This document shows, in pieces, positions 1,269 to 61,900 of a stretch of 64,000 bases of DNA (the first letter of the stretch is position 1; every line of letters begins with the position of its first letter). A model generated the notes under the pieces. The model saw nothing but the letters and a program-made list of their open reading frames with translations. It was not told where the DNA came from and ran no database searches. Both the position numbers and the translations under genes were made by a program. The DNA is taken from positions 797,059 to 861,058 of the forward strand of contig NW_017265148.1 of assembly GCF_001638985.1 (NCBI RefSeq), read 5' to 3'. The stretch is from Phycomyces blakesleeanus NRRL 1555(-) (taxonomy: Eukaryota > Mucoromycota > Mucoromycetes > Mucorales > Phycomycetaceae).

Positions 1269-2760
1269 TTTTTTTAAAAGAAAATTCTTTAAGAACTTAA
1301 GGGTGTGTTGGTGGATGTATATCTTAAAGTAGAATTTCGGTTTAACGGTGCTTTATTTTCTCTCTATCAATTTCAATTTCATTTTTTTCTATTCCCTTGC
1401 TATTCCAGTTAAGCAAATGGAGCCATATTTCTCTTTAACTTACTTCCTTGTACCATCATTTTGAATGCTTGATCTTGTGGTATCCTGAAGACATAATGGA
1501 TTATTATGAAGCAAAGCAGTCTTTGGAATCGGGCATTGTCTTTGGAGTCTTTGTTATTCAATTCAAATTTGTTGTATGCTATTGTATCGGTAAAGAAGAA
1601 CTCTATGCAAAATATTATGGTGATTTTGGATATTTAGAGGATTTTAGTAAATTAGATAATTTCCTTCATTACGTGGGCGCATAACGATACAGCTATTTTG
1701 GGACACGACCTTTACAACGTTTACAACTTGTATATATATCGCACATAAAAATAATAATGTTATAATAGATTTACTACTTGAATCTAGCTAGAAATTTTAT
1801 TATACAGATATAACACAGTGCTTTATTACTAAACCAAATTAATCTGAATTATACAAAGTACTGTTGATAATTATGGATCAGATTGAATTGCTGGATGCTG
1901 AACCGCCCGCCGCTTTACATAAGTTCAATATATGGTAAAAAAAAGCGGCAATAAAAACAAATGTATTGTTCCAGAGAAGCTCCATTGCCAAATGATTAGC
2001 GGAAAAAAATTACAAGTCATTCATACAAACACTATGCCCTGGCAGCAAATATTTCCATTGGATATTATATGTATGTGTGTATTTATATGTCAGGCATTAT
2101 GTACGCACATATAAACTAAATGTAATTAATCGTCTTTTGACACCAAGTGCGTAAAGCGTATATTTTGTGGTACACATACCACAATTGAGTGAAGTACATA
2201 CTCCACAACCAAACACTAGTTCCTTTTTGCTAATGAACTTAGCAAGTTAACAGCCTCTGGTACTGTTATACACCAGACACACGTACGTTGCACACTTACA
2301 CAATATAAACTAGCCATTAAACAACAGGGATTCTGATTAAAAGAAGCTTTAATATTAATAGGCATAAACAATACAATATTGACTCTATTCAACAAGTAAC
2401 ACTTATAGAATTTATTATTTCTTTTCAATTTATTCGTATATCTCGGTTTGCCACTCATTTTTATCTGAATATTCCCTTGTTTCATATACTAGCTTGGACA
2501 AATATTCTTCCCTTTTACATCTCGCTTATTATTATTATTATTATTATTAATGAAATGCCTATTTTTATAATGTACTTGATGGGCTTAACCCCTTTACAAT
2601 AAATATAAGCTGCTATATTTTAATTACTCAAAAAATAATAATAAGACATTTGATAAGTGGCTATTGGAACAAAGAGTTTATTTTCAAAAGAGTTACTTTT
2701 ACTGACATCAGATTCTAAAAAAACTGAAAATGAAGATTAGACTTTTGTGCATTTAAAAAA
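1269..2760. other. AT-rich stretch without a recognisable gene
   Basis: Only short open frames are present (a 78-codon frame at 1448-1684 on +, an 89-codon frame at 2216-2485 on -). Neither shows a domain I recognise, and neither has flanking splice sites that would extend it. A (TTA)n tract lies near 2526-2550. No transposon ends or RNA gene were seen. Confidence 0.5.
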
Positions 2761-2772
2761 GCTTGTATAAAG

Positions 2773-2962
2773 ATAAAACTTACTTTATGCGAGGGCATTT
2801 GCCCATTTGGTGTATTGTGCCATAGAAAGGTCAACTGTATTGCACGGGATCTTGACGCGCAATACAGACAAGAGCTGCTAGTATACCACGGGACCTTGAC
2901 GTAGACATACTAGCCTAGACTGCCATTAGAGGAAGTGACGCCCCCGTCCTATGGCACAATAC
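2773..2962. ncRNA. Candidate structured RNA or cruciform element, unit 1 of a tandem pair
   Basis: A perfect 14-bp outer stem pairs 2812-2825 with 2949-2962. It encloses two hairpins: 2835-2843 with 2859-2867, and 2877-2884 with 2907-2914. The two hairpin loops resemble each other (ACGGGATCTTGACG and ACGGGACCTTGACG). A 13-nt box, ATAAAACTTACTT at 2773-2785, precedes the outer stem by 39 nt (start to start). Unit 2 at 3094-3284 keeps the same architecture, box and spacing despite many substitutions, and four base pairs change on both sides. The transcribed strand is not clear. I cannot match it to a known RNA family. A DNA-level role (cruciform, transposon end) is the main alternative. Confidence 0.45.
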
Positions 2963-3093
2963 TCGCCATACCTTCCGCCCTAGTAATGACAGCTGTACAT
3001 TACAGAACCTAAGCGTATCATACAGAAAAAATCAGATTCAAAGAAATAAAACAATTAGCATTTGACGGTACATTTCAAAGAGCCTGTACAAAA

Positions 3094-3284
3094 ATAAAAC
3101 TTACTTCAGATGATGGACTTGAATATTTATCGTGTCGTGTCATAGCAAGGTCAACTGTACTTCAAGGAATCTTGACGTGAAATACAGACAAGAGCTGCCA
3201 ATATATTACGGAATCTTGACGTGGGTCTATTAGCCTAGATTGCCTCTTAGAGGTCTTAATGCCTCTTAGCTATGACACAACGCG
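3094..3284. ncRNA. Candidate structured RNA or cruciform element, unit 2 of a tandem pair
   Basis: The outer stem pairs 3131-3146 with 3269-3284 (16 positions, two non-Watson-Crick). The inner hairpins are 3155-3164 with 3178-3187, and 3197-3204 with 3227-3234. Both loops again carry the shared motif GGAATCTTGACGTG. The box ATAAAACTTACTT recurs at 3094-3106, 38 nt before the position matching unit 1's stem. Compared with unit 1, the pairs A2814-T2960, C2820-G2954, G2842-C2860 and G2881-C2910 are replaced by G-C, T-A, T-A and A-T. A T-rich run (TTTCTTTT, 3285-3292) follows on +, and TTTTATTTTT follows on -. Either could be a Pol III-type stop, so the strand stays open. Confidence 0.45.
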
Positions 3285-3292
3285 TTTCTTTT

Positions 3293-4026
3293 ATATACAT
3301 TTAGAACATGAACGTTAGATTTGATTAATTAAACAAATTACAGGCTTTCTTTTATATACATACCATCGTCCAAAGTAAATGTACACCTGAAGGTATCGCA
3401 GGGCCATTACAATTAACACCTCACAATTATATCAGCAAAACATCTGTTGGCTGACGCAAACAAGAATGATGCAAGCAGGAATGATGTAACCAATCACGTG
3501 CTGTTTAAACTCTAAGGTGATGGCTGGTTTAAAGATATCGAAACGATTGAAACAAAAAATTAAATGAAATCAGCCAATAAAATTAATTTTTTGTCTGACA
3601 TTATTGATCAAGGTACGTTTTGTAACGGTTATGTATTTAAAGCTAAAATTGCTAAATTCTTTAAGCAAAAAAAAAGAATAATTTGCTTATATGACGGCTG
3701 TTCTGAAATGAATTTTACTATGGTAATAATGAATTGTGGTGCGAACCAGGTTCACGAAAGGAAATAAAGCCTATTAACAACCCGGTTCATTAACACGCTT
3801 ATACCCAGAACCAGTTACCCGATATATTACGGCCAAGTTTCAATGTGATAGAGGGGGTGTGTACTTGTAGCAATTTTTTATCACACTACTACAAATGAAT
3901 GTCCTTTCTAATACAAGGCAGAATAATAGCTTTAAATAAGTATAGAAAGTACCATATGGATTATATACTTTTATACATACAGCTTGACAATAATATACCG
4001 CAAAGATGGTCATACCTGCTGTAATG

Positions 4027-4310: not shown

Positions 4311-4545
4311 AATTGCTAAATAAAAAGGATCATTTTGGTCAAAATGGGAAATTAAATATAGAAAATCAGCTATATATCTACATCGGTTAAGAAAAGGGTC
4401 TTTAAGTTTGTATATAATCTGATGAGACACATAAAGACCCACTATCTAAAGATTGTCTGACATTGATTACTCAAATATTGATCAAAACGTCAAGACGTTT
4501 CAATTGAAAAGAAACCCCATTAATGTTAACATTTGGGTTATTTTT
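4311..4545 (-). repeat. Diverged inverted copy of the foldback repeat family
   Basis: Reading rightwards from 4311 (AATTGCTAA..GGATCATTTTGG) the sequence parallels the reverse complement of 5217 leftwards (AATTGCTAA..TGATCATTTTGA). It continues with shared words such as AGAAAATCAGCT versus CGAAAATCAGCT, and CAAATATTGATCAAAAC versus CAAATATTGACCAAAAC. Together with 4750-5398 it forms a ~900-bp foldback with long arms. Divergence is substantial, so it is an old copy. Confidence 0.6.
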
Positions 4546-4749
4546 TTCACACGGGCATGTTTCATATCAATATTTATTTAGGGTATACACCTCTAATTTT
4601 TTTATAAGGATTTCGTTACATAGCTAGAATAATATCAAGGCTTAAGAAGACCCAATGCTTGACCTTATACAAATCAATATAGTATCTGTGTGTTACCCTG
4701 GTTATTTATATATATATTACAAAAATATCCACTCAGTAATTTATTTAGC

Positions 4750-5398
4750 CTTGTGGTGTAAATAGATTATTTGCCTTTTTTTTATACTTCCTTAACAAAT
4801 GTAGTCATTCTTAGAGTAGTTGATATCTCCCCGAGTTCGCGCTTGTTTCTGTTCAGACAAGTATTGGCAGGCCCGTATTTACGTTTTACACAATTTTACT
4901 TAATAGGAAAAAAAAGAAATTTTTTCAAACTTTTTTTCAGTTGTCCTGTGAGTAAAAGTGGGCATCGAAAATGGACTTTTTTGGTGTAAATAACCCAATT
5001 TACAGTGGATCAAGATTTTATAGTGAAAATGTGGGATGTTTTGGTCAATATTTGAGCAATCGATGTCAAAAAATATTGCTAAGATGGATCTTGATGTGTC
5101 TAACCAGGTTGCCTATAGTTATAGAGCCTATTAGCTTTATGAATAGTGATTTACAGCTGATTTTCGGTGTAGAATTTGCCAATTTGATCAAAATGATCAT
5201 TTTCATTGTTAGCAATTAAGATTTTTATAATTTATATCTCGACACAACAGCTTTATACAGCTAGGACATAGGTATTAAGACACTGCTAATTAAATAGTAG
5301 CTTTCTCTAAAGAGATATATAAGAGATTTAAGGAAACAATAAGTTGTATCTGATATGTCTTTAAACATTGATAAAAAGGGCAAATCCATTTAATGCAA
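4750..5398 (+). repeat. Interspersed repeat, copy A (inverted partner at 22010-22650)
   Basis: This stretch is nearly identical, in inverted orientation, to 22010-22650. The match includes an 82-codon open frame at 4971-5219, whose 62-residue tail is identical to the frame at 22182-22370 on -. The frame has no recognisable domain, and its conservation may only reflect recent duplication. The 4750-4880 part is less similar because of indels. Identity over 4878-5398 is about 95% by eye. Confidence 0.75.
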
Positions 5399-7029: not shown

Positions 7030-8961
7030 ATGAATTCCAAAGTATACAACGCTCTCTGCGCAGCCTTCGCGCTCGCCTACCTGCTTGCCCCAGCTCTCCT
7101 GTTCATCCCTGTGATGTTATGGGAGGCTTCTCCTATGCCCTCTGCATTCTGCATGGCCAAATCTGCTAAGAGAAGACGCCCCTCCATGGCGGGAGTGGGT
7201 GCAATCCCATTTGTTGTTGTAAGACCAGACGGCGAAAATCAAGTCGAAGCTCACAAAAATGTGATGCCTCAGACAATCCTTGGCATGCTGTCAAACTGGC
7301 TAGGCTCTTTGTGGTCTACTGGTTCGCAAACAACGGGAGAACCCTCAGGTAGCTTGTTGAGTAAGCGCCACGGAGGTATCCCAGAGCATATGTTCGTCGA
7401 TGATTCCTCTTCGGAGGCGGAAGACGTTGTTTGCGTAGGAAAGTCGAGCGTGTTCTTTGGAGCAGGGCTTCGGGGATATGTCCCTCACCTCCTTCCTTTG
7501 CACAAGTTGGGACGTGGCATCGCTACAATGGTGTTCCCAGTTAACGGCGTGGCTGGTACCTGTGGGGAAACCCATGCAGACCTCGACGGGGGTGTGTCGA
7601 GTGAGCTTGTAGACAAATGCGATGAAGCTGAGGTCAGCGTACGACTCAGATTCATCTGTGACAGATTTTTCTCAGAGGGTTTTGCAAATCCAAGACTCTC
7701 TGCTAGATTTCTTGACGCGATGTTGGAAGAGGAGCTCAACGACTCTGAAAACAAAGCCCATCGCGACTCATTGGCTGAAGTCGCTGAACCAGAGTGCGGC
7801 GTGGTTCCCGTGCCAGTTGACGAGATTCTTGTCTTTGAGCAAGAGTTTATTCAGACCCCATCGGGTTTGGATAATGCTGGCTTCGTGGTTCCAAAGCCAA
7901 AGTTTGGGACAGTGGAAGGCCTCAATGAGGCGTTCGCTCTATCGTCTTGGCAATCGGCTAATGGATTTTTTGGTGAATGTCTCTCCACAGGACTTCCCAC
8001 ACCGATGGAGATTGACGACGACCTGGCTTGGAGTGAAGTCATGGAAGTTGAAATTCCCATGGAGATTGATGATGTTGCTGAGGTGATGGTGCTTGATGCT
8101 AATTGTGGCGAAAAGCTCATGACCCACACCTACAATCCAACGGTTACCGATTTGCAGTACGTCTCCCAGTCTGCAAACATGGATTGTGATACGAACGATC
8201 TCCCAGCCTGCGTACCGCAACAGGCTGCAGACGACAAGATGGAAGACGACACAGAAAAAATAGTGCTATCTGGACCATCCTCTCTGAAGAAGTACGATGC
8301 ACCAAAGCCTAGACAAAAGGTAGGTGCCGACGAGGTCAAAGGTAGCAAAGAGCCTTCAATGGCGGTCTCCCGACCAAAAGAGAAGAGCTCGAAGCTTCCT
8401 CGACCTGCCAGTCAAAAGGCCATTGAGGAAGCAAAGGCCGCAATCGAAGGGCCAGAAAGCAAGGTGGCTTCGGCCTCTTGTGATCTCCCTTCACAGCTGC
8501 CCAAGTCACTTTTTGGCCTTCGCACCGAGCGGGCAAAGCTTGTGTCAAGCCTTGCTTCCAAAGTGCCTGAACCAGTTACAACAGCCAGTTGTGACAAGGG
8601 AAAGGCCCCAAAGAAAAAGGCCAAGACACAGGGGTCAACTGCTACCCCAGCTGCCCAGGTCTCTGTTCCTGTTGCTGCACCCAGCAGCAAAAAGGAGGAG
8701 AGTATCAAGGAATTCAAGTCAGATCTTCCTTCTGCATCTCGCGGCAAGAAAGTGAAGACTTCCGGCGGTGATGAGAAGGCCGATCTAGTTATCGAACCCA
8801 TCGGTAAAGAGATTGGAGAACCTCAGATCCAGCCATTCCCAGCTCGCAATCCTGCGTCAAAGCCGGCAAAGTCTTCGAGCAAGGGAGGAAAAGAGGTTCC
8901 AATGAACCTATTGAAGTATGCGCTCCGATTCAAAGGCGCCCCAACTGTCAACAAGGAGTAA
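7030..8961 (+). CDS. Unknown 643-residue protein of the large repeated element
   Basis: I do not recognise the family. The ATG follows a pyrimidine-rich leader and an ATATATATA box typical of fungal promoters. Residues ~8-32 are hydrophobic (a possible signal anchor), and KRRR follows near residue 48, so a downstream start at the MAKSAKRRR methionine is possible. The middle is acidic, with PMEIDDD-like repeats at about residues 323-350. The last third is Lys/Ser/Ala/Pro-rich and probably disordered. GC content is visibly higher than in the surroundings. No reverse transcriptase, DDE or zinc-knuckle motif is visible. A second copy, with few differences, lies inverted at 62654-64000. The stop codon lies inside a good splice donor (GA|GTAAGA), so the true C-terminus may be spliced. 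A role in element propagation is only inferred. Confidence 0.6.
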   Translation: MNSKVYNALCAAFALAYLLAPALLFIPVMLWEASPMPSAFCMAKSAKRRRPSMAGVGAIPFVVVRPDGENQVEAHKNVMPQTILGMLSNWLGSLWSTGSQTTGEPSGSLLSKRHGGIPEHMFVDDSSSEAEDVVCVGKSSVFFGAGLRGYVPHLLPLHKLGRGIATMVFPVNGVAGTCGETHADLDGGVSSELVDKCDEAEVSVRLRFICDRFFSEGFANPRLSARFLDAMLEEELNDSENKAHRDSLAEVAEPECGVVPVPVDEILVFEQEFIQTPSGLDNAGFVVPKPKFGTVEGLNEAFALSSWQSANGFFGECLSTGLPTPMEIDDDLAWSEVMEVEIPMEIDDVAEVMVLDANCGEKLMTHTYNPTVTDLQYVSQSANMDCDTNDLPACVPQQAADDKMEDDTEKIVLSGPSSLKKYDAPKPRQKVGADEVKGSKEPSMAVSRPKEKSSKLPRPASQKAIEEAKAAIEGPESKVASASCDLPSQLPKSLFGLRTERAKLVSSLASKVPEPVTTASCDKGKAPKKKAKTQGSTATPAAQVSVPVAAPSSKKEESIKEFKSDLPSASRGKKVKTSGGDEKADLVIEPIGKEIGEPQIQPFPARNPASKPAKSSSKGGKEVPMNLLKYALRFKGAPTVNKE

Positions 8962-11940
8962 GATTGTTTGTTAGCGGTGCCCGAGCTCACCTTGACCCAT
9001 TGGGTCTGAGGTGTAGTGAAAGAATCTGCGAAGCTGATGATTCCGAAAACTTGGACAAATTTTTGCTGCCCTGTACGCTTCACCAAGCAGACATCTTGTC
9101 GGTCGGTTGGCCCTGGAGCCAAGCCGACGCGGTCGGAACGAAAGGTTGATCCTGAAGCTTCTGGTAAGCTTTATGGTGATACTGGAATTCCCGGACCTTT
9201 CACAGTACTTTTCCTTGGGACTATCTGCGTGGTGATTCACGTTGGGTCTCTTGGTTAAGCTGTAAGGGTAGCCTCTTTTACGTTCGGTTCCTACAGCTTT
9301 CAAATTCAAAGGACTGGATTATCGTTTCCCTCTGGGATCGACACCATGCTCCGCCTGTTAGCTTGGTTCTGAGTCTTGGCTTGGCATAGACAGTATAAAG
9401 AGAAGGTAGATTGTGGAGGTCTACAAATGAGTGTAACCTGTGGTGGTACTAGACTGGTTTTCAATCCTGTTTGCCTCTGGTATTTGCCGTTTGTATACAT
9501 TCGAGGGTGGTGCTTGCACTGCTGTAGGGTTGGCTTGAACCTTTTGTTCGTAGGGTTCTTGTTGACTTCCTCTCAGGTCTGAGGCCGAGATCTGTGAGTG
9601 GTGGTTTCTGTACGAGTAGGGCTTCCGGAGTCCTTGATTCTGGGTCGTTTTTGGGGCCACGGTGGTCCTGTTGGCTTGTCTGGTCTGGTTGGCTAGATTT
9701 CCGGTATCATTCTGGTATCATTCTGGAGATCGTTGTTGGCTAGGTTTCCGGCTTGTTCTGTACCTGGGTTCTGGGTCTTTGTAGCTTGAGTTTTGTGCTT
9801 AAGCCAGGGAGAATGAATACTGTGGGGCACGGTGTTCATTATGTAGTCATGTCTGGCCGAATGGGTTTTGCTTCCTTGCCGGATTCTTTCTTGGGGTCCT
9901 TGGAAGGCTATCGTCAGTCCCCTCCTTTTTTTTCTGGTGAGTTCTCGAAGACTCACTGGTAGGCTCGGATAAGTCTTTTTGGACTTTGAGTTTGCTGAAA
10001 TATAGATTGTGGAAAATCTATTGCCGGGGGGTAGATAGTCCCAAGAGGTTTTGGGAAAACGAGCCAAGAACATCGGGTTCCTACCAAGATTTGCGAGGTT
10101 TTCCCTCACAGACATGACGGTATATCAGTCATTATGATTGCTACTAGTCCTTGTGTCTGGACTCAAATGATGCGTACAAATGCATGTCCAGACAGTCGCA
10201 GCTATTTTGAGATGGCAAAACCAAAAATTAATCTGCGCAAAAGGATATGCTTTTAAGACTGGTCGATTAGGTATCAGTGACGTTGTCAGTCGAATCAAGA
10301 TAAACTGACCATACAAAAAAATGTCACTGAAGAGATAGCGTGGAATTCGCCGATGATCTCAAGCATCACGCAAAACCTGTGGTCAGAGTCCTAGCCACCC
10401 TCATTTGAGGAGGACTCTGATTAATATGGTCTGGTAAATGAACCAGACCAAGCAGGGTGAGCTAGAAATTATCACCAAAAAAAAAAAAGCAGATTACAGT
10501 TAGCAACTGGAAATGCGTACACTCAAGAAAATAAGACCCGAGTCGAAGGGCATTTACGCACACTTTCAGTTGTGAAGGAGAAGCAAGGTTACATTCGACA
10601 AACCTATCCAAACCAAGTCGAGACAAGTGCTTACAAGCCGTATTCATGGAAACTCATAGAGAGTTCAGTCCAGTACCAAAACAATATTCTCGAAACAAAA
10701 TCAGAAAAGCAAAGCTGAACATGGAAGTCAAAACAAACAGCACAGAGAAACATTAAAAGAATGGAATCAAGTCTTCAAGTCTTCAAGCCTTCAAGTACAA
10801 AAGGTTAAAATCAAGTAGGCTAACCTAGAGTCTCGCCATCTCGCTGGGTTGGCCGAAAAGCACACAAAGAGTCTCGACTAGGATATGGGCACAACAAGAA
10901 TAAATTCATCATCATCATTCAAGACTATTGGCTCAGGACTGCAAAAAGGTATTTGGGATGACCGGGTTTATATTATGGACCGAGAACACCAGCAGGAACA
11001 AGTAGAGGCCGTCAGTAGTAAACAACAGAGCTCAAGGCAGAAGCAATGTGAACCACAAAGCAAGCAATAAGGCAATTTTTCGAGGGTTGTTTTTGTCTCT
11101 GGATTTCTTTGTCAGAGATAATATCAACCATTAGTCCGTTTATCCAGAAGATAAGTACTATTTATACACAATATGTCTCGGTACTAATTATATGATATTT
11201 TTTCATCTTCTCAGGGCCGCCCTGTGACAGGGCTCGCAATACTACAACCCTTTAGAGGATACCAGAGATAGCTTGTGAGCGTTGGACTTTACCAAAAGGT
11301 AAAGCTTCTCGGTACGCTAGTAGTACCTTTTCTCCCCTCAAAATATTGTACATTGCATTGTATGCCTGTATATATTTAGGGTTCTTGGTGTGGTAAGCCA
11401 GGATCTGGTAGCTCCTCTGCCATTCGGTGGTCAAACCCTTTTGCGGTTGACCCCATCGCTGCAAGTTGGCACATTGTTTCTGCTAGAAGCTTGGTTGTTT
11501 ACTGTCGGTGGTCTCGCATACCTCCTACTGGTGATCAAGGTCCATTCCGCCCGGTCATCAAAGAACATTTTGCAGTCCCGAGCCCGTCTCTTCAGATGAT
11601 GTTACCTATTCCAAAACAAGTTCCTTTACTTACAAAACAAATTCTATCAATTAAGGTATGTTATTTTGGTCATTCAAACCTGCCTCATATGTAAATACGT
11701 TTTTCGCTTTCTCACTCATTTTTTTCTTTATCTTTTTAAGCCATATTCAGCCTTATCAACTCCAATAATGCGGCAAATTCCGAAGCCTGAATCCTGTGCA
11801 AGAATGACAGCAGCAAGAACCAAGTCAAGCAAGAGGAATACAAAAAAAAGATACAAAAAAAAGATACAAAAAAGAATACAAAAAAAAAGGAAAAAATATA
11901 TTCACAATTATCTCTCTATCTCAAGTAAAAACTCATAGAC
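8962..11940. other. Middle part of the large element, no confirmed gene
   Basis: GC content falls gradually from 8962 to 10100. Short open frames occur on both strands (for example 140 codons on - at 9693-10115, rich in Asn/Gln/Thr, and 70 codons on - at 11252-11464). None is recognisable. All are shared with copy B, as expected for a recent duplicate. One + frame at about 9012-9149 could join the 643-codon ORF by a ~54-nt intron (donor GTAAGA at 8958, acceptor GTGTAG ending at 9016). Confidence 0.5.
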
Positions 11941-11989
11941 TAGCAGAATCCCTGAAATGGTCAAGCCACGGTTTGCTTATATGTTCAAG

Positions 11990-12218
11990 TCCAATTCCAA
12001 GTCTTGTCTAAGTCCAAGTCCAAGTCCAAGTCCAAGTCCAAATGTCCAAGCACTGTCCAAGCACTGTCCAAGTACTGTTCTAGTACTAGTCCTAGCACAT
12101 AAATATATATAAACAAGTAGAGAAGTACGCAAGTAGAGAAGTATACATACATACATACACACACACACAAACACACGCAATTTCTATTTTTGCTATTTAT
12201 TTCTTACACACACACACA

Positions 12219-12256
<38 letters not shown>

Positions 12257-12360
12257 TACACACACACATACACACACACATACACATAGTCATAGTCATA
12301 GTCATAGTCATACAAACATACATATACACACTTATATACATACATATATACATACAAAAG
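11990..12360. repeat. Microsatellite block in element tail: (AAGTCC)n, (AC)n, (ATAC)n, (CATAGT)n
   Basis: Consecutive tracts of AAGTCC hexamers (about 12008-12042), ATAC (12143-12160), AC (about 12163-12295) and CATAGT (12287-12312) are present. The same block, with changed copy numbers, occurs inverted at about 59300-59620. Open frames here encode only Val/Cys/Tyr or Leu/Gly/Asp repeats and are not genes. Confidence 0.85.
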
Positions 12361-12499
12361 TAGAGGCGCATTTCTATCAAAGTCCAAAATCTGGGCTGTA
12401 CCTCCAAGTCTCAAGGCCAAGTCGATTTCCAAGAAGGGGTCCAATGCAAAATTCCAAAAGCAAGTTCCAAAAGAAAAACCAAAAACCAAAAACCAAATC

Positions 12500-12722
12500 C
12501 GAGGCCTATACTAAGTCCTGTAATAAAACGGGCATATACTAAGTCCTCCACTCCAAAAGGATCAAATCCAAAAACCGAGGCGTAGACCAAACCCTATCAG
12601 AAATGATCAGGCACATATTAAGTCCTCCACTTCAAAAGGATCAAAAGAAATCCGACCCTGAGGCCTATACTAAGTCCTGTCCAAAAATCACACAGGCATA
12701 TACTAAGCCCTCCTCTCTCTAA

Positions 12723-12753
<31 letters not shown>

Positions 12754-13560
12754 CAAAAAAAAAAAACAAAAAAAAAAACAAAAAAAAAAAGCAAAAAAAA
12801 AGCAAAAAAAAAGCAAAAAAAGATGAACAAACCGGAAGAACACTGCATTGGAACCTGGACCTGGATTGAAGCAAAGCTGCGAACTGGAACAAGACTCTGG
12901 ATTAGGACAAGGTATGAAATCCCTTTTTACACATATACATACAAAGCAAATGAAGTCTTTGATCAAAAACAAAAAACAAAAAAAAATGCTCAAAAAAAGA
13001 AGCTCAAAAAAACAGAAAGAGCAAAAAGAGCAATACCAAAACCCCCTTCTCTTATACTTTTCAATATCAAACCCATCCTTTTATTACTATTCCATGAAAT
13101 TGACTGGACAAAAAAAACCAAAAAAAAAAGAATAAAAAAAAAATAAAAAAAAAATCAAAATCAAAAAGTCCAAATTATTCCCTTTATTATGTGTGCTGTG
13201 TTCGGACAAAAAAAATCAAAAAAAAAGTCCAAATTATCTTTTTTATTCTTTTCAATATCAAAATCATCCTCTTATTACTATTCCGTGAAATTGACTGGAC
13301 AAAAAAAAAGAATCAAAAAAAGAATCAAAAAAAGAATCAAAAAAACAAGAAAAAAACAAAACGTCCAAATTATCCCCTTTATTATTTTTCAATACCAAAA
13401 TCCTCCTCCTCCTATCACTCTTAGCTTATATTGACTGGACAAAAAAAAAGAAGAAAAAAAACGGACAAAAAAAAAAGATCAAAAGAAATATCAAATGGAC
13501 CAAGAAAAAAAAACCGACTGGACTTGACTGGAACCGACTGGACTGGACTGAAGTAGCATG
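12500..13560. repeat. A-rich tandem-repeat tail of the large element
   Basis: Two ~110-bp units built on CTATACTAAGTCCTG and CATACTAAGTCCTCC are followed by long poly-A runs broken by GC. After these come units ending in AAATTGACTGGAC plus poly-A (about 13079-13120, 13258-13310, 13380-13445). Copy B carries an additional unit of the GTCC..AACACAGCACACATA type (58300-58415), which accounts for most of the ~105-bp length difference between the arms. Confidence 0.75.
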
Positions 13561-14219
13561 AACTTGACCATCTTATATTATATTATATTTAATTTAACTT
13601 ATATTTCCTTTATACAAACCTTTGAATAATAAAATTCCCCTCATATGTCTTTGATATCATATTTATATTTCTGTCTCTTTTTCTTTGGTGTCCTATATGG
13701 AGTTTACTGTTAGAAAGCCCAAGGAAAGAGGGACTTTGTAAACAATTTAAGCATGGAAAAATGTAAAATCTTAGTGTGGCTCGTTTCTCTTGATAGAACT
13801 CATAGCAGAAAAGGTAACTTTATGTACAATTGATGGCAAACTTCATATAAAAACATGATTAATTTATGTAAGAGTAGCTACCTTACTTGTGGGGAATTTG
13901 GCCAGGGATAATATAGTTATGGGTACTTTAATCGAGCATATTGTACGTATGAATTTTGATGTTATGAAAGAAACCATCTCAACCAAGAGACATTAATGGT
14001 ATTCAATAGTTTTTTACGATATTGGCTAATTATATGGTGCTTAAACTACCACTACATCTAACAGTCAAGCATCCAGACCTGGTAAATATCTCCTAGTAAT
14101 GATTCCGTTGACGCTTCCTGAATCTTTTACTTTGCCCTCAAATATCCAAGTATGGCCAGTATTAAATTAAGAAACCCTCACGGAAAAGACCCAGAACGTA
14201 AAATAACTTGTGATGGATG

Positions 14220-15140
14220 ACGGTTTTGAGAAGGCATTCAATTAGTATCAATTCTGGACCAAGACCTTCCTCGTTTAAAAACGACCATAATATTTGTGGG
14301 ATCTTTCAATGAATCGAAGTTCTCTATATTTTACAACACTCTTTAGGATTTTGGCATAAAAGTAGAAAAAGCTGAATTTCCCCTTAATAGCCGTGATAAA
14401 GATTTGACAATTCATTTCAACAGCTATCTTAACTTTATCTCAGAAGCACTGAGAGTTCTATGGGTAGGTTTGATTCACTTGTCGAGTAGAGAGCCTGTTT
14501 CGAAGACGCTATGTTTCTATTCAAACCTGGTCGAGTTGCACAGCAAAACCCCTTGTATTATTGAAATTAACATTATGCTAAATAAATACAAATTATTAAG
14601 ATTATTAAACATGAATTCAGCCAATGTGTACCTCTCCAAGCAGTCAGATTACAGTCACAGCCCGCATTTTCTACAAAGACTGGAACTCATTGACGTCTAT
14701 ATAGACACACAGACCTTTAAAAACATACATTTTCTTGGTGTAAACAGCTTTTATTCCTGGGACTAGAATACGTTAAGTTTGATGGATCTGAATTGATGAA
14801 AAGCGTAAAGATCTTTATCGAAATGTCGCACTCCCAGTTGGACACTCTTATACTTTGTAGCATCCTATCATACTGTGGCTTGATAAAACATTACAGTACT
14901 AAACAGCATATTAATGGTAATTTTAATCAATTGAACTTGAATAACCAAGAACACCCGACGTTATCAAAGAGGTGTCGTATATGCTTCAACAATACAGACA
15001 AAATAAATAGATCTCTTGCATGTGAACTTGAGAGGCGTGACATTGAATGTCTTCAGAAGCTCTGTAAAGGTTTTATGAACAATGACAGTCATGCTTATAA
15101 TACTGTGTTCACAAAAACGTGGGTGGCTATAGTGGGATTT
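14220..15140 (+). pseudogene. Decayed F-box/leucine-rich-repeat-like gene fragment, copy 2
   Basis: Near-identical duplicate of 352-1268. Open pieces at 14404-14766 and 14793-15140 carry the same block order and the same stop after NSFYSWD. Homology begins at GACGGT near 14220 and ends at GTGGGATTTT near 15140, with unrelated flanks. It lies 130 bp from the right end of the large element copy A. It lacks the F-box region and the start, so it is non-functional as an F-box protein. Confidence 0.75.
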
Positions 15141-16347
15141 TAATTAAACACTGATTTCTCTCTTTCATATGTATCCCACTTTTTACCCCACCCTGTTTTT
15201 GCATTCTGCAAAACACATTTTCCCAACTTCTTCAACCCAATATAAGAATTAAAGACAATAAAATTATTCGAATCTAATAGCTTACCATTCAGTAACAACC
15301 CCCCCTCATGAATTTGGGCTACATCCTATTTCATTATACTGTCTACAAAGATCCTGAGAAATCTTATAAGCAGTTCAAGTCTCTTTCGGTACAAATAATA
15401 ATACTAATATAAAATTATTTCCAAACGTAGCATACTGTAGAAAAATAGTAATATAATTGATTTAAAGGACTTGTAACTTTGACACTTCTAGCATACATTA
15501 AGCTAAGGGTGATATTCAATTACTATTATTTTAATTTTTAATACAAAAAACCATTTTAGAAGAATATTGTACATTCACTGAGAGAAAAAAACATCCTTTT
15601 TTAAATAGTGCATTACTTGTTTCTGGCTCACTAACAAAAGATAATGCTAATGTCGCTGGTGTTGATATAAGAAAGAACTCCTTTCAATATTTGCAAGCCT
15701 CAATGCAGCATCATTATTTACTACTAATATATGTATAAGTTCCCAAAACTTGCTAGATAGAGCAGATAATCCTATCAGGAAAGGAATAATTGCTATAATC
15801 ATTTTTTTTCGCTGGTCATTACTGGTGATTGCGGGTGAGAAAATTGCTCTTTCCCGGGTAGTTCAATGGTCTCGTCCAAATTTTGGGAAAGCTAATTTGA
15901 ATTCGACCTATAAATTCCTTATGGTAATTATTTATAAAGAGTTCTCTTGGAAGTACTGGATGCATATGCTCTAATAGCTTAGATACCAGAAAACCAATAT
16001 TTCATATCATATTGGTCGAAGTTATTGAGATCTTATAACACAATATAGTTCCAGAATATATTGGCGATAATGCTATACTGAGAGGCGTCCACACATAAAA
16101 CTTGCTTACAGTCTGATTACACTTGCATGTCCCTGAATAGCAATATTTACACCTTTTAGATCATTCGAGGAAGTTTTTTTACATTTAGATATATTACAAA
16201 TTTTGGCTTTAAACTGTGGCGTATATCCAAGAAATAAATATTAAAGAAGCCCATCAAACTTACAAGAGCGTAATTTCAAGAAAAATAGAGATCTCAGAGT
16301 CATAATAGAGAAAAGGATTAGATTATTTTTTATTTATTTATTTCTTT
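15141..16347. other. Intergenic, no gene seen
   Basis: AT-rich. The longest frame (15750-15974, 74 codons) has no recognisable features. Nothing else is supported. Confidence 0.5.
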
Positions 16348-19113: not shown

Positions 19114-20006
19114 TATCTTTAAATATATCAAATTTACTTTTCTGGCCCAGCTAGACATTATAGCCAAAATGCAAAGTATCCGCGATTGGGGGCTTTAGGT
19201 AGTCTTTGGATATTGAACAAGTTTTTTTGCTAGAGTTTTCTCAAGAAAAATTAGAACGAGTTCAAAAAACATCGACATATAACTCCAGTTGTACTATATT
19301 AGCTATATAATAAGAACAATTATACAAAGTTGAACTATACAGAACATTAATAGTCAACACAAACAAAGAAAAACGGCTTACTAAAGCGTGTATGATTGGG
19401 TTTAGATGTCAATAACAGACCATATATCCAGAATAAAGGTTATTGGTTTAGCTTCGAGGGCCTATGGTTTAGTTTATCAATGAATTTGTCTAAATATTTT
19501 TTCTGAAAGTTATACGTATGCTCATCTTCAGAAGCTTATTGCCCCCACCAAGGTAGACAACATAAAGATAGAATTAAGAACAGTGGTTGTGTGGCTGATA
19601 ATTATAAAATATTATTAAGGTTTTTACAGAGGAGTAGTCGACCGGCTTTCATTTCCACTTATAGACATCAGTTTCATCCCTTAAAAGGGCAGAACCTAAA
19701 AGTGAAATACCAACAAGTTACAGATCTTTAACAAACGGTTGCACGCTATTATAAGCAGCAAATAAATATATATATATATATATATATGATCTACCACAAC
19801 TAGGTGAGCGCCCTGAGATTTTTATGGAGGAGTGCTAAGCCAATAGATTGATGTGGAACTTGTAGACAGTAATGTTCAAGGGATATAATGGCTCATTAAA
19901 TTGGTGATTTTCTCTTTCCAATATATATATATATATTTTGGGTGATGCTTATAAGACTTTATATTCTTTTTTCCTCTTCATTTTCCTTTTATCTTTACTT
20001 CTTGTA
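19114..20006. other. Intergenic / promoter side of the F-box gene
   Basis: AT-rich, with (TA)n at about 19767-19788 and 19920-19935. A pyrimidine-rich leader (TTTTTTCCTCTTC) directly precedes the F-box gene start. No other gene seen. Confidence 0.5.
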
Positions 20007-21821
20007 ATGATACCAAAATTTCCATACGAAATTATATCTCTCATCGCTTCCCATCTCGAAAGTTACGATCAATCAACCTGTGCCCTAGTCTGTAAACAGT
20101 TGACAGAGCCATTTCAAAATGCTCACTGGTATCGCTTGGATATGAACAATTACATAATAAAGGGATTTTTTAATAAATCACAGAACAACACGTATTTAAC
20201 CAATGCCCATCGTGTGGTCGAGCTGACAATTGACGGCCTAAACGAACATTGCGAGAAATACTATTTAAAAATGCAGCAACTTTACCCTGATATAAAACGC
20301 CTTGAATACTATGAGTCATCTCAAACCAACCAAATTTTAAAAATGATTAATTGGAACTCTTGGAAAACATTATCACATTTGAAGATATCGTTTCATTTCA
20401 AAATCATTATTGTACCGAGAACCCTTTTTACAAAACTGTCGGTATTATCTTGCCTTACTCATCTTACGCTACATTCAATATTGTCAGTGTGGGCCGTCTA
20501 TAAAAATCAGGCGCCTTTTTCATGGTTGGACATTGAACTACTTCATACTTTCTTACCGCAGCTGGAGGATCTAGACGTTAAGTTTATGCTTACACCAATA
20601 CCAAAGCAAGACATAAATATAATAAGACGCATTACCCCGGCATACACCATAAAAAAGTTTTGCTGTAGCAACCATTATATCAATGCTTACTGGATGTTCT
20701 ACTTTGCGCTCAAGTATCCAAATTTACTCGAGATTGAGCTTGAGATAGATGGCTTAGGTATCTCAGAAAGGCCAATAACTCAAAAAGAAGACTATCAAAA
20801 CGAAATCCAACTATTATCGACGCTTGACCGATTCTTTCCTTGTTTAAAAAAGACACGTGTCCGTGCGGAATCTTTTAATGAGTGGAGATTCTCTATGTTT
20901 TTTGATACTCTTTTGTATTTCAACGTAAATATAGAGACTGCTAAGCTCTCTTATTACGAAAAGTGTACAATTGAGCCGAATAAACCCAAAAGTCTCTTGA
21001 GCGTTACCCCGGAATCACTGAGAGTTTTGTGGATAGAACTTTTGTATTTTTCGGACGAGGAACCGATTACTAAAAGATTCGTTCTATATCTCGGCCTAGT
21101 TGAGTTGCACTTTGAAGTTTATGTTCAGATTGAAATAGACGTTATCCTGGATAAATGCCCATTATTGCGGTTGCTGTATATAAAGTCTGGCAAAGTCTAC
21201 CTCTCTGAACAGTCAAACAACATCACTGGCCCACACCCTTTACGAAGATTGAATCTACAAGGAATCATATCTAATACCCAAGTTTTCGAATATATATCCT
21301 TCCGTTGTAAGAAACTTTCATTCTTGAAGTTAAATTCTGTTGACTTTAAAGAGTTTGCTCTCACGGAAACCAGACGGCTGCTTTTTGACATGTCATTCTC
21401 TCAACTGGACACACTCATAATTTGCAATATCAGATTAAAGTATGACAAAGTCAAGCATTTTATCATTGAACAAGTAAGCAATGTCGATGATGGTTCATTG
21501 GATTTGGATTACCTTGAGGGACCAGCTCAATCAAGCTGGTATTATATACACTTGGACCCAGCAAGAGCAGAAAAAGTACCGTGTACATGGAAACTTGATG
21601 AATCTGATATCAAATATGCTCAGGAATACTGCAAGAACATCAAGAAAGGTAGCTTTTCTGGAATTTCTATCGGAAGCATGGGAGAAGCCTATGGTGGTTA
21701 TGAATCAAAAGACTTTTGGAAGAAAGATCTTCAAAATGGCATCTTCGTTGTTCGAGTCCAATCTGTTAAAGATTATTATCTAGATACAGAGAAAATTGAA
21801 AGCATGATATGTATGCTTTAA
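20007..21821 (+). CDS. F-box protein with leucine-rich-repeat-like body
   Basis: Intronless frame of 604 codons from the ATG at 20007. The frame is open upstream to an ATG at 19938, but those 23 residues derive from the pyrimidine-rich leader, so the downstream start is preferred. Residues 3-45 form an F-box (FPYEIISLIASHLES, then CALVCKQLTEPF). This is the motif that binds Skp1 in SCF ubiquitin ligases. The remainder has irregular Leu-rich repeats (LLRLLYI, LRRLNLQG, LSFLKLNSV) that would receive a substrate. The target is unknown. One broken relative lies at 43656-45496 and two fragments at 352-1268 and 14220-15140, so this belongs to an expanded family. It is the only apparently intact member here and sits between transposon remnants. 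Confidence 0.8.
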   Translation: MIPKFPYEIISLIASHLESYDQSTCALVCKQLTEPFQNAHWYRLDMNNYIIKGFFNKSQNNTYLTNAHRVVELTIDGLNEHCEKYYLKMQQLYPDIKRLEYYESSQTNQILKMINWNSWKTLSHLKISFHFKIIIVPRTLFTKLSVLSCLTHLTLHSILSVWAVYKNQAPFSWLDIELLHTFLPQLEDLDVKFMLTPIPKQDINIIRRITPAYTIKKFCCSNHYINAYWMFYFALKYPNLLEIELEIDGLGISERPITQKEDYQNEIQLLSTLDRFFPCLKKTRVRAESFNEWRFSMFFDTLLYFNVNIETAKLSYYEKCTIEPNKPKSLLSVTPESLRVLWIELLYFSDEEPITKRFVLYLGLVELHFEVYVQIEIDVILDKCPLLRLLYIKSGKVYLSEQSNNITGPHPLRRLNLQGIISNTQVFEYISFRCKKLSFLKLNSVDFKEFALTETRRLLFDMSFSQLDTLIICNIRLKYDKVKHFIIEQVSNVDDGSLDLDYLEGPAQSSWYYIHLDPARAEKVPCTWKLDESDIKYAQEYCKNIKKGSFSGISIGSMGEAYGGYESKDFWKKDLQNGIFVVRVQSVKDYYLDTEKIESMICML

Positions 21822-57420: not shown

Positions 57421-58820
57421 GTATTTACCAGTTCTGGATGCTTGACTGTTAGATGTAGTGGTAGTTTAAGCACCATATAATTAGCCAATATCGTAAAAAA
57501 CTATTGAATACCATTAATGTCTCTTGGTTGAGATGGTTTCTTTCATAACATCAAAATTCATACGTACAATATGCTCGATTAAAGTACCCATAACTATATT
57601 ATCCCTGGTCAAATTCCCCACAAGTAAGGTAGCTACTCTTACATAAATTAATCATGTTTTTATATGAAGTTTGCCATCAATTGTACATAAAGTTACCTTT
57701 TCTGCTATGAGTTCTATCAAGAGAAACGAGCCACACTAAGATTTTACATTTTTCCATGCTTAAATTGTTTACAAAGTCCCTCTTTCCTTGGGCTTTCTAA
57801 CAGTAAACTCCATATAGGACACCAAAGAAAAAGAGACAGAAATATAAATATGATATCAAAGACATATGAGGGGAATTTTATTATTCAAAGGTTTGTATAA
57901 AGGAAATATAAGTTAAATTAAATATAATATAATATAAGATGGTCAAGTTCATGCTACTTCAGTCCAGTCCAGTCGGTTCCAGTCAAGTCCAGTCGGTTTT
58001 TTTTTTTGGTCCATTTGATATTTCTTTTGATCTTTTTTTTTTTGTCCGTTTTTTTTCTTCTTCTTTTTGTCCAGTCAATATAATCTAAGAGTGATAGGAG
58101 GAGGAGGATTTTGGTATTGAAAAATAATAAAGGGGATAATTTGGACTTTTTGTTTTTTTCTTGTTTTTTTGATTCTTTTTTTGATTTTTTTTTTTGTCCA
58201 GTCAATTTCACGGAATAGTAATAAGAGGATGATTTTGATATTGAAAAGAATAAAAAAGATAATTTGGACTTTTTTTTTTTTTTTTTTTTTTGCTTTTTTT
58301 TTTGTCCAAACACAGCACACATAATAAAGGGGGATAATTTGGACTTTTTGATTTTTTTTTTTGATTTTTTTTTTAATTTTTTTTGTCCGAACACAGCACA
58401 CATAGTAAAGGGGATAATTTGGACTTTTTGATTTTGATTTTGATTTTTGATTTTGATTTTTTTTTTTGATTTTTTTTTTACTTCTTTTTTTTTGTCCAGT
58501 CAATTTCATGGAATAGTAATAAAAGGATGGGTTTTGATATTGAAAAGTATAAGAGAAGGGGGTTTTGGTATTGCTCTTTTTGCTCTTTCTGTTTTTTTGA
58601 GCTTCTTTTTTTGAGCATTTTTTTTTGTTTTTTGTTTTTGATCAAAGACTTCATTTGCTTTGTATGTATATGTGTAAAAAGGGATTTCATACCTTGTCCT
58701 AATCCAGAGTCTTGTTCCAGTTCGCAGCTTTGCTTCAATCCAGGTCCAGGTTCCAATGCAGAGTTCTTCCGGTTTGTTCATCTTTTTTCTTGTTTTTTTT
58801 TTTTGCTTTTTTTTTTGTTT

Positions 58821-58851
<31 letters not shown>

Positions 58852-58869
58852 TGCTCTTTTTTTTGCTTT

Positions 58870-58910
<41 letters not shown>

Positions 58911-61900
58911 TTTTTTTTGAGAGAGAGAGGAGGGCTTAGTATATGCCTGTGTAATTTTTGGACAGGACTTAGTATAGGCCTCAGGGTCGGATTTCTTTTG
59001 ATCCTTTTGGAGTGGAGGACTTAATATGTGCCTGATCATTTCTGATAGGGTTTGGTCTACGCCTCGGTTTTTGGATTTGATCCTTTTGGAGTGGAGGACT
59101 TAGTATATGCCCGTTTTATTGCAGGACTTAGTATAGGCCTCGGATTTGGTTTTTGGTTTTTGGTTTTTCTTTTGGAACTTGCTTTTGGAATTTTGCATTG
59201 GACCCCTTCTTGGAAATCGACTTGGCCTTGAGACTTGGAGGTACAGCCCAGATTTTGGACTTTGATAGAAATGCGCCTCTACTTTTGTATGTATATATGT
59301 ATGTATATAAGTGTGTATATGTATGTTTGTATGCCTATGACTATGACTATGTGTATGTGTGTGTGTATGTGTGTGTGTATTTGTGTGTGTGTGTGTGTGT
59401 ATGTGTGTGTGTGTGTGTGTAAGAAATAAATAGCAAAAATAGAAATTGCGTGTGTTTGTGTGTGTGTGTATATATGTATGTATACTTCTCTACTTGTGTA
59501 CTTCTCTACTTGTTTATATATATTTATGTGCTAGGACTAGTACTAGAACAGTACTTGGACAGTGCTTGGACAGTGCTTGGACATTTGGACTTGGACTTGG
59601 ACTTGGACAAGACTTGGAATTGGACTTGAACATATAAGCAAACCGTGGCTTGACCATTTCAGGGATTCTGCTAGTCTATGAGTTTTTACTTGAGATAGAG
59701 AGATAATTGTGAATATATTTTTTTCTTTTTTTTTGTATTCTTTTTTGTATCTTTTTTTTGTATCTTTTTTTTTTTGTATTCCTCTTGCTTGACTTGGTTC
59801 TTGCTGCTGTCATTCTTGCACAGGATTCAGGCTTCGGAATTGGCCGCATTATTGGAGTTGATAAGGTTGAATATGGCTTAAAAAGATAAAGAAAAAAATG
59901 AGTGAGAAAGCGAAAAACGTATTTACATATGAGGCAGGTTTGAATGACCAAAATAACATACCTTAATTGATAGAATTTGTTTTGTAAGTAAAGGAACTTG
60001 TCTTGGAATAGGTAACATCATCTGAAGAGACGGGCTCGGGACTGCAAAATGTTCTTTGATGACCGGGCGGAATGGACCTTGATCACCAGTAGGAGGTATG
60101 CGAGACCACCGACAGTAAACAACCAAGCTTCTAGCAGAAACAATGTGCCAACTTGCAGCGATGGGGTCAACCGCAAAAGGGTTTGACCACCGAATGGCAG
60201 AGGAGCTACCAGATCCTGGCTTACCACACCAAGAACCCTAAATATATACAGGCATACAATGCAATGTACAATATTTTGAGGGGAGAAAAGGTACTACTAG
60301 CGTACCGAGCAGCTTTACCTTTTGGTAAAGTCCAACGCTCACAAGCTATCTCTGGTATCCTCTAAAGGGTTGTAGTATTGCGAGCCCTGTCACAGGGCGG
60401 CCCTGAGAAGATGAAAAAATATCATATAATTAGTACCGAGACATATTGTGTATAAATAGTACTTATCTTCTGGATAAACGGACTAATGGTTGATATTATC
60501 TCTGACAAAGAAATCCAGAGACAAAAACAACCCTCGAAAAATTGCCTTATTGCTTGCTTTGTGGTTCACATTGCTTCTGCCTTGAGCTCTGTTGTTTACT
60601 ACTGACGGCCTCTACTTGTTCCTGCTGGTGTTCTCGGTCCATAATATAAACCCGGTCATCCCAAATACCTTTTTGCAGTCCTGAGCCAATAGTCTTGAAT
60701 GATGATGATGAATTTATTCTTGTTGTGCCCATATCCTAGTCGAGACTCTTTGTGTGCTTTTCGGCCAACCCAGCGAGATGGCGAGACTCTAGGTTAGCCT
60801 ACTTGATTTTAACCTTTTGTACTTGAAGGCTTGAAGACTTGAAGACTTGATTCCATTCTTTTAATGTTTCTCTGTGCTGTTTGTTTTGACTTCCATGTTC
60901 AGCTTTGCTTTTCTGATTTTGTTTCGAGAATATTGTTTTGGTACTGGACTGAACTCTCTATGAGTTTCCATGAATACGGCTTGTAAGCACTTGTCTCGAC
61001 TTGGTTTGGATAGGTTTGTCGAATGTAACCTTGATTCTCCTTCACAACTGAAAGTGTGCGTAAATGCCCTTCGACTCGGGTCTTATTTTCTTGAGTGTAC
61101 GCATTTCCAGTTGCTAACTGTAATCTGCTTTTTTTTTTGGTGATAATTTCTAGCTCACCCTGCTTGGTCTGGTTCATTTACCAGACCATATTAATCAGAG
61201 TCCTCCTCAAATGAGGGTGGCTAGGACTCTGACCACAGGTTTTGCGTGATGCTTGAGATCATCGGCGAATTCCACGCTATCTCTTCAGTGACATTTTTTT
61301 GTATGGTCAGTTTATCTTGATTCGACTGACAACGTCACTGATACCTAATCGACCAGTCTTAAAAGCATATCCTTTTGCGCAGATTAATTTTTGGTTTTGC
61401 CATCTCAAAATAGCTGCGACTGTCTGGACATGCATTTGTACGCATCATTTGAGTCCAGACACAAGGACTAGTAGCAATCATAATGACTGATATACCGTCA
61501 TGTCTGTAAGGGAAAACCTCGCAAATCTTGGTAGGAACCCGATGTTCTTGGCTCGTTTTCCCAAAACCTCTTGGGACTATCTACCCCCCGGCAATAGATT
61601 TTCCACAATCTATATTTCAGCAAACTCAAAGTCCAAAAAGACTTATCCGAGCCTACCAGTGAGTCTTCGAGAACTCACCAGAAAAAAAAGGAGGGGACTG
61701 ACGATAGCCTTCCAAGGACCCCAAGAAAGAATCCGGCAAGGAAGCAAAACCCATTCGGCCAGACATGACTACATAATGAACACCGTGCCCCACAGTATTC
61801 ATTCTCCCTGGCTTAAGCACAAAACTCAAGCTGCAAAGACCCAGAACCCAGGTACAGAACAAGCCGGCAACCTAGCCAACAACGATCCCCAGAATGATAC

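Follow-up and report, generated by a model that had tools for sequence, protein, structure and literature searches.

Tandem hairpin domains in Phycomyces blakesleeanus belong to a dispersed family of probable spliced RNA genes

The window analyzed here, a stretch of 64,000 nucleotides from Phycomyces blakesleeanus NRRL 1555(-) (contig NW_017265148.1, positions 797,059 to 861,058), contains about 44 kb of what appear by eye to be ordinary genes, lying between two inverted copies of a repeat of about 5.9 kb (7615-13488 and 58149-64000, 96% identical), the right copy of which reaches the window end. Near the left end of the window is a tandem pair of units that sequence comparison and folding identify as diverged copies of one fold, in which an outer stem surrounds two hairpins. 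Over 120 nt (2805-2924 against 3125-3244) the two can be aligned gap-free, at 79% identity and a spacing of 320, and the box ATAAAACTTACTT occurs twice, at 2773-2785 and 3094-3106. A first-pass annotation of this DNA had described an outer stem enclosing two hairpins in each unit, and both alignment and folding bear out that description. The structural elements, assigned to the strand argued for below, are as follows.

2812..2962, minus strand: unit 1 fold, outer stem 2812-2825 paired with 2949-2962
2835-2867 (hairpin 1) and 2877-2914 (hairpin 2), minus strand: unit 1 hairpins, from folding and covariation
3132..3283, minus strand: unit 2 fold, outer stem 3132-3146 paired with 3269-3283
3155-3187 and 3197-3234, minus strand: unit 2 hairpins, placed via the 320-nt offset from unit 1

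All 33 tested pairs of unit 1 are perfectly paired in the window, and the outer stem of unit 2 includes one C.A and one T.G. Folding of unit 1 gave a z score of -4.39 on the plus strand and -4.59 on the minus strand (2773-2985, MFE -81.6). Unit 2 folded with its flanks was hardly better than shuffled sequence on the plus strand (z -1.25, with 21 of 200 shuffles equally stable) and reached z -2.38 on the minus strand (2 of 200); trimmed to the fold, it gave -3.0 and -3.8, respectively (60 shuffles). Unit 2 is also found by model R1 at 3097-3286 on the minus strand with 206.7 bits, a score for a sequence that was itself within the R1 training set. The loops had been said to share (A)CGGRAYCTTGACG, which is true of three of the four window loops, but hairpin 1 of unit 2 has AAGGAATCTTGACG instead.

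The pair of units is not confined to this locus. A search of the same genome (a 53.5-Mb assembly) found a family of 17 loci, comprising 15 pairs and two single-unit relics, on C14 and C9; three further queries added none, and such counts are lower bounds. The copies are 80-100% identical to that of the window over the 561-nt pair region, and the lowest identity among the copies compared with one another, 72%, is that of L014 and L013 (on C48). In nine copies examined by BLAST, coverage from the other copies is zero or nearly so outside the core. In one of the 15 pairs, L009, unit 2 has lost 44 nt, and both single-unit relics (L016 and L017) show the same loop-to-loop deletion between repeated TCTTGACG stretches, of the kind that slippage between short direct repeats would produce. 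In three copies (L006, L007 and L008) unit 1 and unit 2 seem, by eye, to have exchanged sequence. Some copies look decayed, and not every copy need be active. Unit 1 of L013, for example, lacks the donor described below and folds poorly (z -0.9 on the minus strand).

This many diverged copies allowed the fold to be examined by covariation. Two alignments (A2 and A3) were built from 29 units, 15 of unit 1 and 14 of unit 2; unit 2 of L009 and the two single units lack hairpin halves and were therefore left out. Four stem pairs had been reported to change on both sides between the two units, and all four double changes are indeed in the window sequence. In the family, the pair 2814-2960 is A-T in 15 of 15 copies of unit 1, and in unit 2 is G-C in 9, A.C in 4 and T.C in 1; the pair 2820-2954 is C.A in 10, C-G in 2, T-A in 2 and G.G in 1 of the unit 1 sequences, and T-A in 12 and C.A in 2 of the unit 2 sequences. 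At 2842-2860, unit 1 has G-C in 10, A.C in 4 and T.C in 1, and unit 2 has T-A in all 14. At 2881-2910, unit 1 has G-C in 14 and C.C in 1, and unit 2 has A-T in 9 and G-C in 5.

Read on the minus strand, 93.8% of cells hold standard pairs (40 pairs, 1120 cells) and the covariation score is 0.280; neither value was reached by any of 500 column shuffles, and the same holds for the count of cells altered on both sides. Fifteen of the 40 pairs have changed on both sides, which 4 of the 500 shuffles matched. Of the five measures compared with shuffles, only the count of further pair types failed to stand out (241 of 500 shuffles reached the observed value on the minus strand). The plus strand gave 85.8% standard pairs and a covariation score of 0.160, both above all 500 shuffles. 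Sliding the partners by 1-3 columns lowered minus-strand pairing to 21-50%.

Since shuffles take no account of how the units are related, neutral evolution was also simulated along the unit tree, starting from perfectly paired helices and applying about 135 parsimony changes at a transition fraction of 0.8 (1000 runs). Simulated pairing averaged 79.7% (sd 3.5) and in no run was as high as observed. The units have 58 cells with changes on both sides where the simulations averaged 21 (sd 11; observed value reached in 2 of 1000 runs), and 15 such pairs where they averaged 8.2 (sd 2.7; 12 of 1000). At a transition fraction of 0.7 the observed percentage paired, both-side cells and both-side pairs were reached in 0, 2 and 4 runs of 1000, and at 0.9 in 0, 5 and 22; the tree that underlies all of these figures is an assumption broken by the apparent unit exchange in L006, L007 and L008. 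All told, the fold looks real. The first-pass annotation had seen here the signature of a conserved RNA fold, and covariation above both shuffles and a neutral tree in 29 units upholds that reading, though most likely on the other strand and with a different anatomy. The DNA cruciform or hairpin-templated repair that it offered as an alternative is not needed, and would leave the one-sided wobbles, exon lengths, splice sites and poly(A) signal unexplained.

The RNA strand is most likely the minus strand, the reverse complement of the strand described earlier. Viewed on the plus strand, the 33 helix pairs include 101 A.C cells (which are G.U on the minus strand), 27 G.U and 25 other mismatches. 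Parsimony losses favor the minus strand by 38 to 19 (p=0.016 at 1:1), and since substitutions in the flanks predict an A.C share of 0.395, the observed losses have p=5.7e-5 on that expectation; near-identical copies among the 29 units and unit exchange mean that these events are not all independent. The minus strand has the lower MFE in all 29 units and the lower z score in 25 of them. That said, unit 1 taken alone shows no strand asymmetry in single-site transitions on the copy tree (15 against 18), and 31 of 1000 simulation runs yield an excess of GU over AC at least as large as that observed (16 and 34 runs when the transition fraction is 0.7 and 0.9). Given these weaker results, the strand call rests on the whole set of units together with the gene signals, and only the minus strand gives a sensible reading of the splice sites and poly(A) signal.

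The clearest of these signals is the 13-nt box. Both boxes read as splice donors and not as elements of the fold: the minus-strand sequence is AAGTAAGTTTTAT, and the box is, judged by that sequence, a 5' splice site of the form AA/GTAAGT. The two U1 genes of the genome start with ATACTTACC, complementary to these donors. A control intron of 87 nt from a protein gene in the window (aminotransferase-like by eye) carries the same signals (GTAAGTTTT..ACTAAT..GCAG), and the next (second) intron of that gene was missed by the same pattern. The gene model predicted for the minus strand consists of the following features.

3495..3500, minus strand: promoter-like CACGTG, intact in 16 of 17 copies
3350..3358, minus strand: upstream TATA-like box TATATAAAA, exact in 7 of 17 copies and present as a variant in 10
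3289..3297, minus strand: downstream TATA-like box TATATAAAA, exact in 14 of 17 copies
3105..3320, minus strand: predicted exon 1, holding unit 2; its 5' end is a guess
3009..3104, minus strand: predicted intron 1, with GTAAGT at 3104-3099, CTAAT at 3058-3054 and AG at 3010-3009
2784..3008, minus strand: predicted exon 2, which contains unit 1; of the 15 paired copies, 13 have 225 nt and 2 have 224
2715..2783, minus strand: predicted intron 2, with GTAAGT at 2783-2778, CTAAT at 2740-2736 and TTTTTTAG at 2722-2715
2675..2714, minus strand: predicted short last exon, with a poly(A) signal at 2703-2698 (AGTAAA in the window)

These features are retained across the family to a considerable extent. 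The donor of intron 1 is exact in 15 of 17 copies, and in the 15 paired copies its CTAAT stands in the same column in 12 and its AG is present in all; the intron is 93-98 nt long in 14 of them and 123 nt in the other. Intron 2, of 67-73 nt, has an exact donor in 13 of the 15 paired copies, CTAAT in 14 of 17, and a pyrimidine tract with AG in 17 of 17. The acceptor positions of the two introns are not homologous. Between 3105 and 3299, exon 1 of 14 paired copies measures 193-195 nt; the fifteenth copy is L009, with its 44-nt deletion. The predicted poly(A) signal lies at +11 from the last acceptor and reads AATAAA in 14 of 17 copies, AGTAAA in the window copy and one other, and GATAAA in 1.

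Pairwise gap fractions, taken over 8 of the 15 paired copies with L009 set aside, are 0.004 for exon 1 and 0.000 for exon 2, against 0.133 and 0.052 for introns 1 and 2, and they are 0.015 for 3300-3349, 0.054 for the promoter stretch and 0.046 downstream. Apart from its signal the last exon shows little conservation (0.69 identity, with a gap fraction of 0.195). The units themselves are highly conserved; to the left of 2750 conservation fades, and no abrupt drop marks the predicted 3' end. At the other end, the downstream TATA-like box adjoins unit 2, so a start 30 nt downstream of it would cut the outer stem; the upstream box, though less conserved, fits better. A CCAAT-type ATTGG beside the CACGTG (3490-3494) was dropped from the model, being found in the window copy only.

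The predicted RNA is apparently non-coding. In 15 copies spliced in silico the longest ORF, found in one copy, has 55 aa, and in the other copies none exceeds 30 aa (among ORFs of at least 20 aa, top four per copy), for which reason a protein-coding gene on either strand was rejected. Short ORFs do recur, one of 24 aa in 8 of 15 spliced copies (not that of the window) and ones of 22-25 aa in 11 of 15, and a small peptide may be possible. A shared downstream gene on the minus strand was considered and set aside, since a long ORF (PPR-like by eye) is present there in one copy, but no neighbor common to the 10 copies listed is apparent by eye.

The pattern of change within the domain is, to judge by site-by-site comparison, that of a structured RNA, whose stems would drift by compensation as loops and junctions stay. 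Parsimony changes per site amount to 0.40 in the donor, 0.56 and 0.78 in the junction strands J2 and J3, 1.00 and 1.11 in the loops, 1.29 in the 5' junction region, 1.69 in the stems and 2.56 in the linker to the donor, the fastest part of the unit. Of the 58 hairpin loops, 52 have an unaltered TCAAG; 26 of 29 units keep TTGAC in J3 and 28 of 29 keep TCTTG in J2, and the distance from domain to donor is nearly constant, the donor lying about 27 nt downstream of the outer stem. Partial complementarity of J2 and J3 to the loops hints at contacts of GUCAA with UUGAC and of CAAGA with UCUUG. An RNAalifold consensus of the plus alignment preferred such loop-junction pairing, but since there is little variation in these columns, and no clear compensation among the few differences, it is kept as a lead only.

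We think it probable that these loci form a family of minus-strand RNA genes whose spliced, polyadenylated and apparently non-coding product acts through its fold as a scaffold or decoy. RNA polymerase II would start near 3320, with the CACGTG and TATA-like motifs upstream, and would transcribe exon 1 with unit 2, an intron of about 96 nt, exon 2 with unit 1, an intron of about 69 nt and a last exon of about 40 nt. The spliced RNA, of about 0.5 kb, would then carry two copies of one domain, which may have arisen by duplication of an exon-intron module. Each domain is predicted to form a three-way junction, the outer stem closing a junction with two hairpins, and every hairpin would be capped by a UCAAGRUYC-like nonanucleotide loop. 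The four near-identical loops could bind one kind of partner, making the RNA a multivalent scaffold or decoy, and they might be locked by pairing to the conserved junction strands (GUCAA/UUGAC and CAAGA/UCUUG).

The main competitor of this reading, somewhat less probable than an even chance would make it, is that the loci are copies of a non-autonomous transposable element, the core of which would be a promoter and leader RNA conserved by recent copying or by the element's own machinery. Dispersal over 17 loci would be natural for such an element, as would the apparent lack by eye of a common neighboring ORF around the 10 copies listed. Six copies, that of the window included, moreover sit inside one larger repeated segment that also holds an ORF for which every named relative comes from Phycomyces. 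Against this, homology ends vary from copy to copy, so that neither TIR nor TSD could be defined, and a search for ends common to the copies compared, as LTR, SINE or Helitron termini would be, found none among the matches listed; a (TTA)n tract near 2527-2549 was likewise rejected as a retroposon tail, because only some copies begin there and others extend past it. The shared part of the C14 relic, longer in other copies, runs from about 2698 to about 3500, close to the limits of the predicted gene; its homology stops just past CACGTG, and that of the C9 relic about 100 nt further against some copies. Also to be weighed against this reading are L014 and L015, which over the pair are only 80-81% identical to the window yet have retained the exon lengths, the donors and acceptors and most of the pairing; the most diverged copy, L013, has kept its exon lengths, though one donor is lost.

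The remaining readings keep the fold and give it another role. An unlikely one is a tandem regulatory aptamer of riboswitch kind in the leader of a lost or unrecognized gene, each domain controlling the donor some 27 nt downstream. Tandem riboswitch aptamers are known, and fungal TPP riboswitches control splicing; here too there are two copies of one fold, each at a near-fixed distance from a splice donor, a spacing held while the linker changes faster than any other part, and domain and donor appear to have been duplicated as one module. The Phycomyces units differ, however, in having no recognized aptamer, Rfam match at gathering score or long ORF, an AATAAA stands 11 nt past the last acceptor in most copies, and no neighboring ORF common to the 10 copies listed is apparent by eye. 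The perfect pairing of unit 1 in the window might suggest instead a hairpin RNA feeding Dicer, whether miRNA-like or an hpRNA source, but this is quite improbable: miRNA precursors are expected to have arms more conserved than loops, and in this family loops and junctions are better conserved than stems, and the unit 2 copies have many wobbles and mismatches. Hardest of all to credit is a plus-strand RNA or DNA cruciform, for instance a U1-like RNA. On that strand the box, ACTTACTT, resembles the 5' end of U1, the fold can also form and covariation also exceeds the shuffles; yet the broken pairs are then mostly A.C, and the splicing and polyadenylation signals lose their sense. Nor do strand and fold fit U1 itself (RF00003), which has no match in the window, and two genuine U1 genes, both over the Rfam cut-off, lie elsewhere, on C20 and C4.

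The earlier remark that no known family fits agrees with our searches, as the window contains no Rfam 15 match at gathering score. Four matches with E values up to 10 at the locus are all far below gathering, none at gathering score was found in 7 of the 19 copy loci of the genome-search listing, and exact-pattern scans of viral and prokaryotic contigs gave no matches. Titles and the openings of abstracts yielded nothing on such an RNA in Phycomyces.

For a family of spliced, polyadenylated RNAs acting through their fold, the nearest likeness is with the roX RNAs of Drosophila, spliced and polyadenylated non-coding RNAs whose function resides in tandem stem-loops with a repeated motif. The predicted Phycomyces RNA similarly presents a repeated loop motif on tandem stem-loops, with no sequence relation claimed; it differs in having three-way-junction domains and 17 loci, it belongs to another kingdom, and its function is conjectural. 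A second model for how it might work is meiRNA of fission yeast, a decoy for Mmi1 that carries a linear, unstructured repeat of the binding motif. Both would set many copies of a binding motif on one RNA, but the motif of meiRNA is linear and that of the Phycomyces RNA is a loop on a conserved fold. By its predicted features, then, the RNA would be a new family of a known general kind, unusual in its build of a duplicated structured exon with its donor. It is doubtful that it amounts to a new class of fungal RNA, in which splicing joins duplicated, tertiary-folded exons into a four-loop platform, with loop-junction pairing and the donor inside the module. To our knowledge, the structured non-coding RNAs of early-diverging fungi seem to have received little study. 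If the transcript exists, a single genome holds enough diverged paralogues to support its fold by covariation, and the predictions of exons, strand and poly(A) site are precise. The case also illustrates how two hairpins spotted by inspection of the sequence may lead to a gene model for the opposite strand.

Several other repeats surround the locus. Within the repeated segment adjoining the predicted RNA gene is an ORF of 643 aa (7030-8958) that belongs to a repeated family; nine of the ten relatives listed are from Phycomyces blakesleeanus, one of these being named 'secreted neurofilament-like protein'. The repeated segment is flanked by direct copies of a broken gene fragment (349-1270 and 14219-15141, 96% identical), which has no Pfam match in its two frames and by eye resembles an F-box-like gene at 19908-21818. 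Another sequence of 0.9 kb, at 4311-5228, has inverted ends (4311-4491 and 5035-5217, 72% identical) and parts that are multicopy in the genome, and is MITE-like. Finally, in two copies (L005 and L016) the segment equivalent to 2412-2645 of the window, which adjoins the 3' end of the predicted RNA gene, is inverted, near TTATTA/TAATAA inverted repeats.
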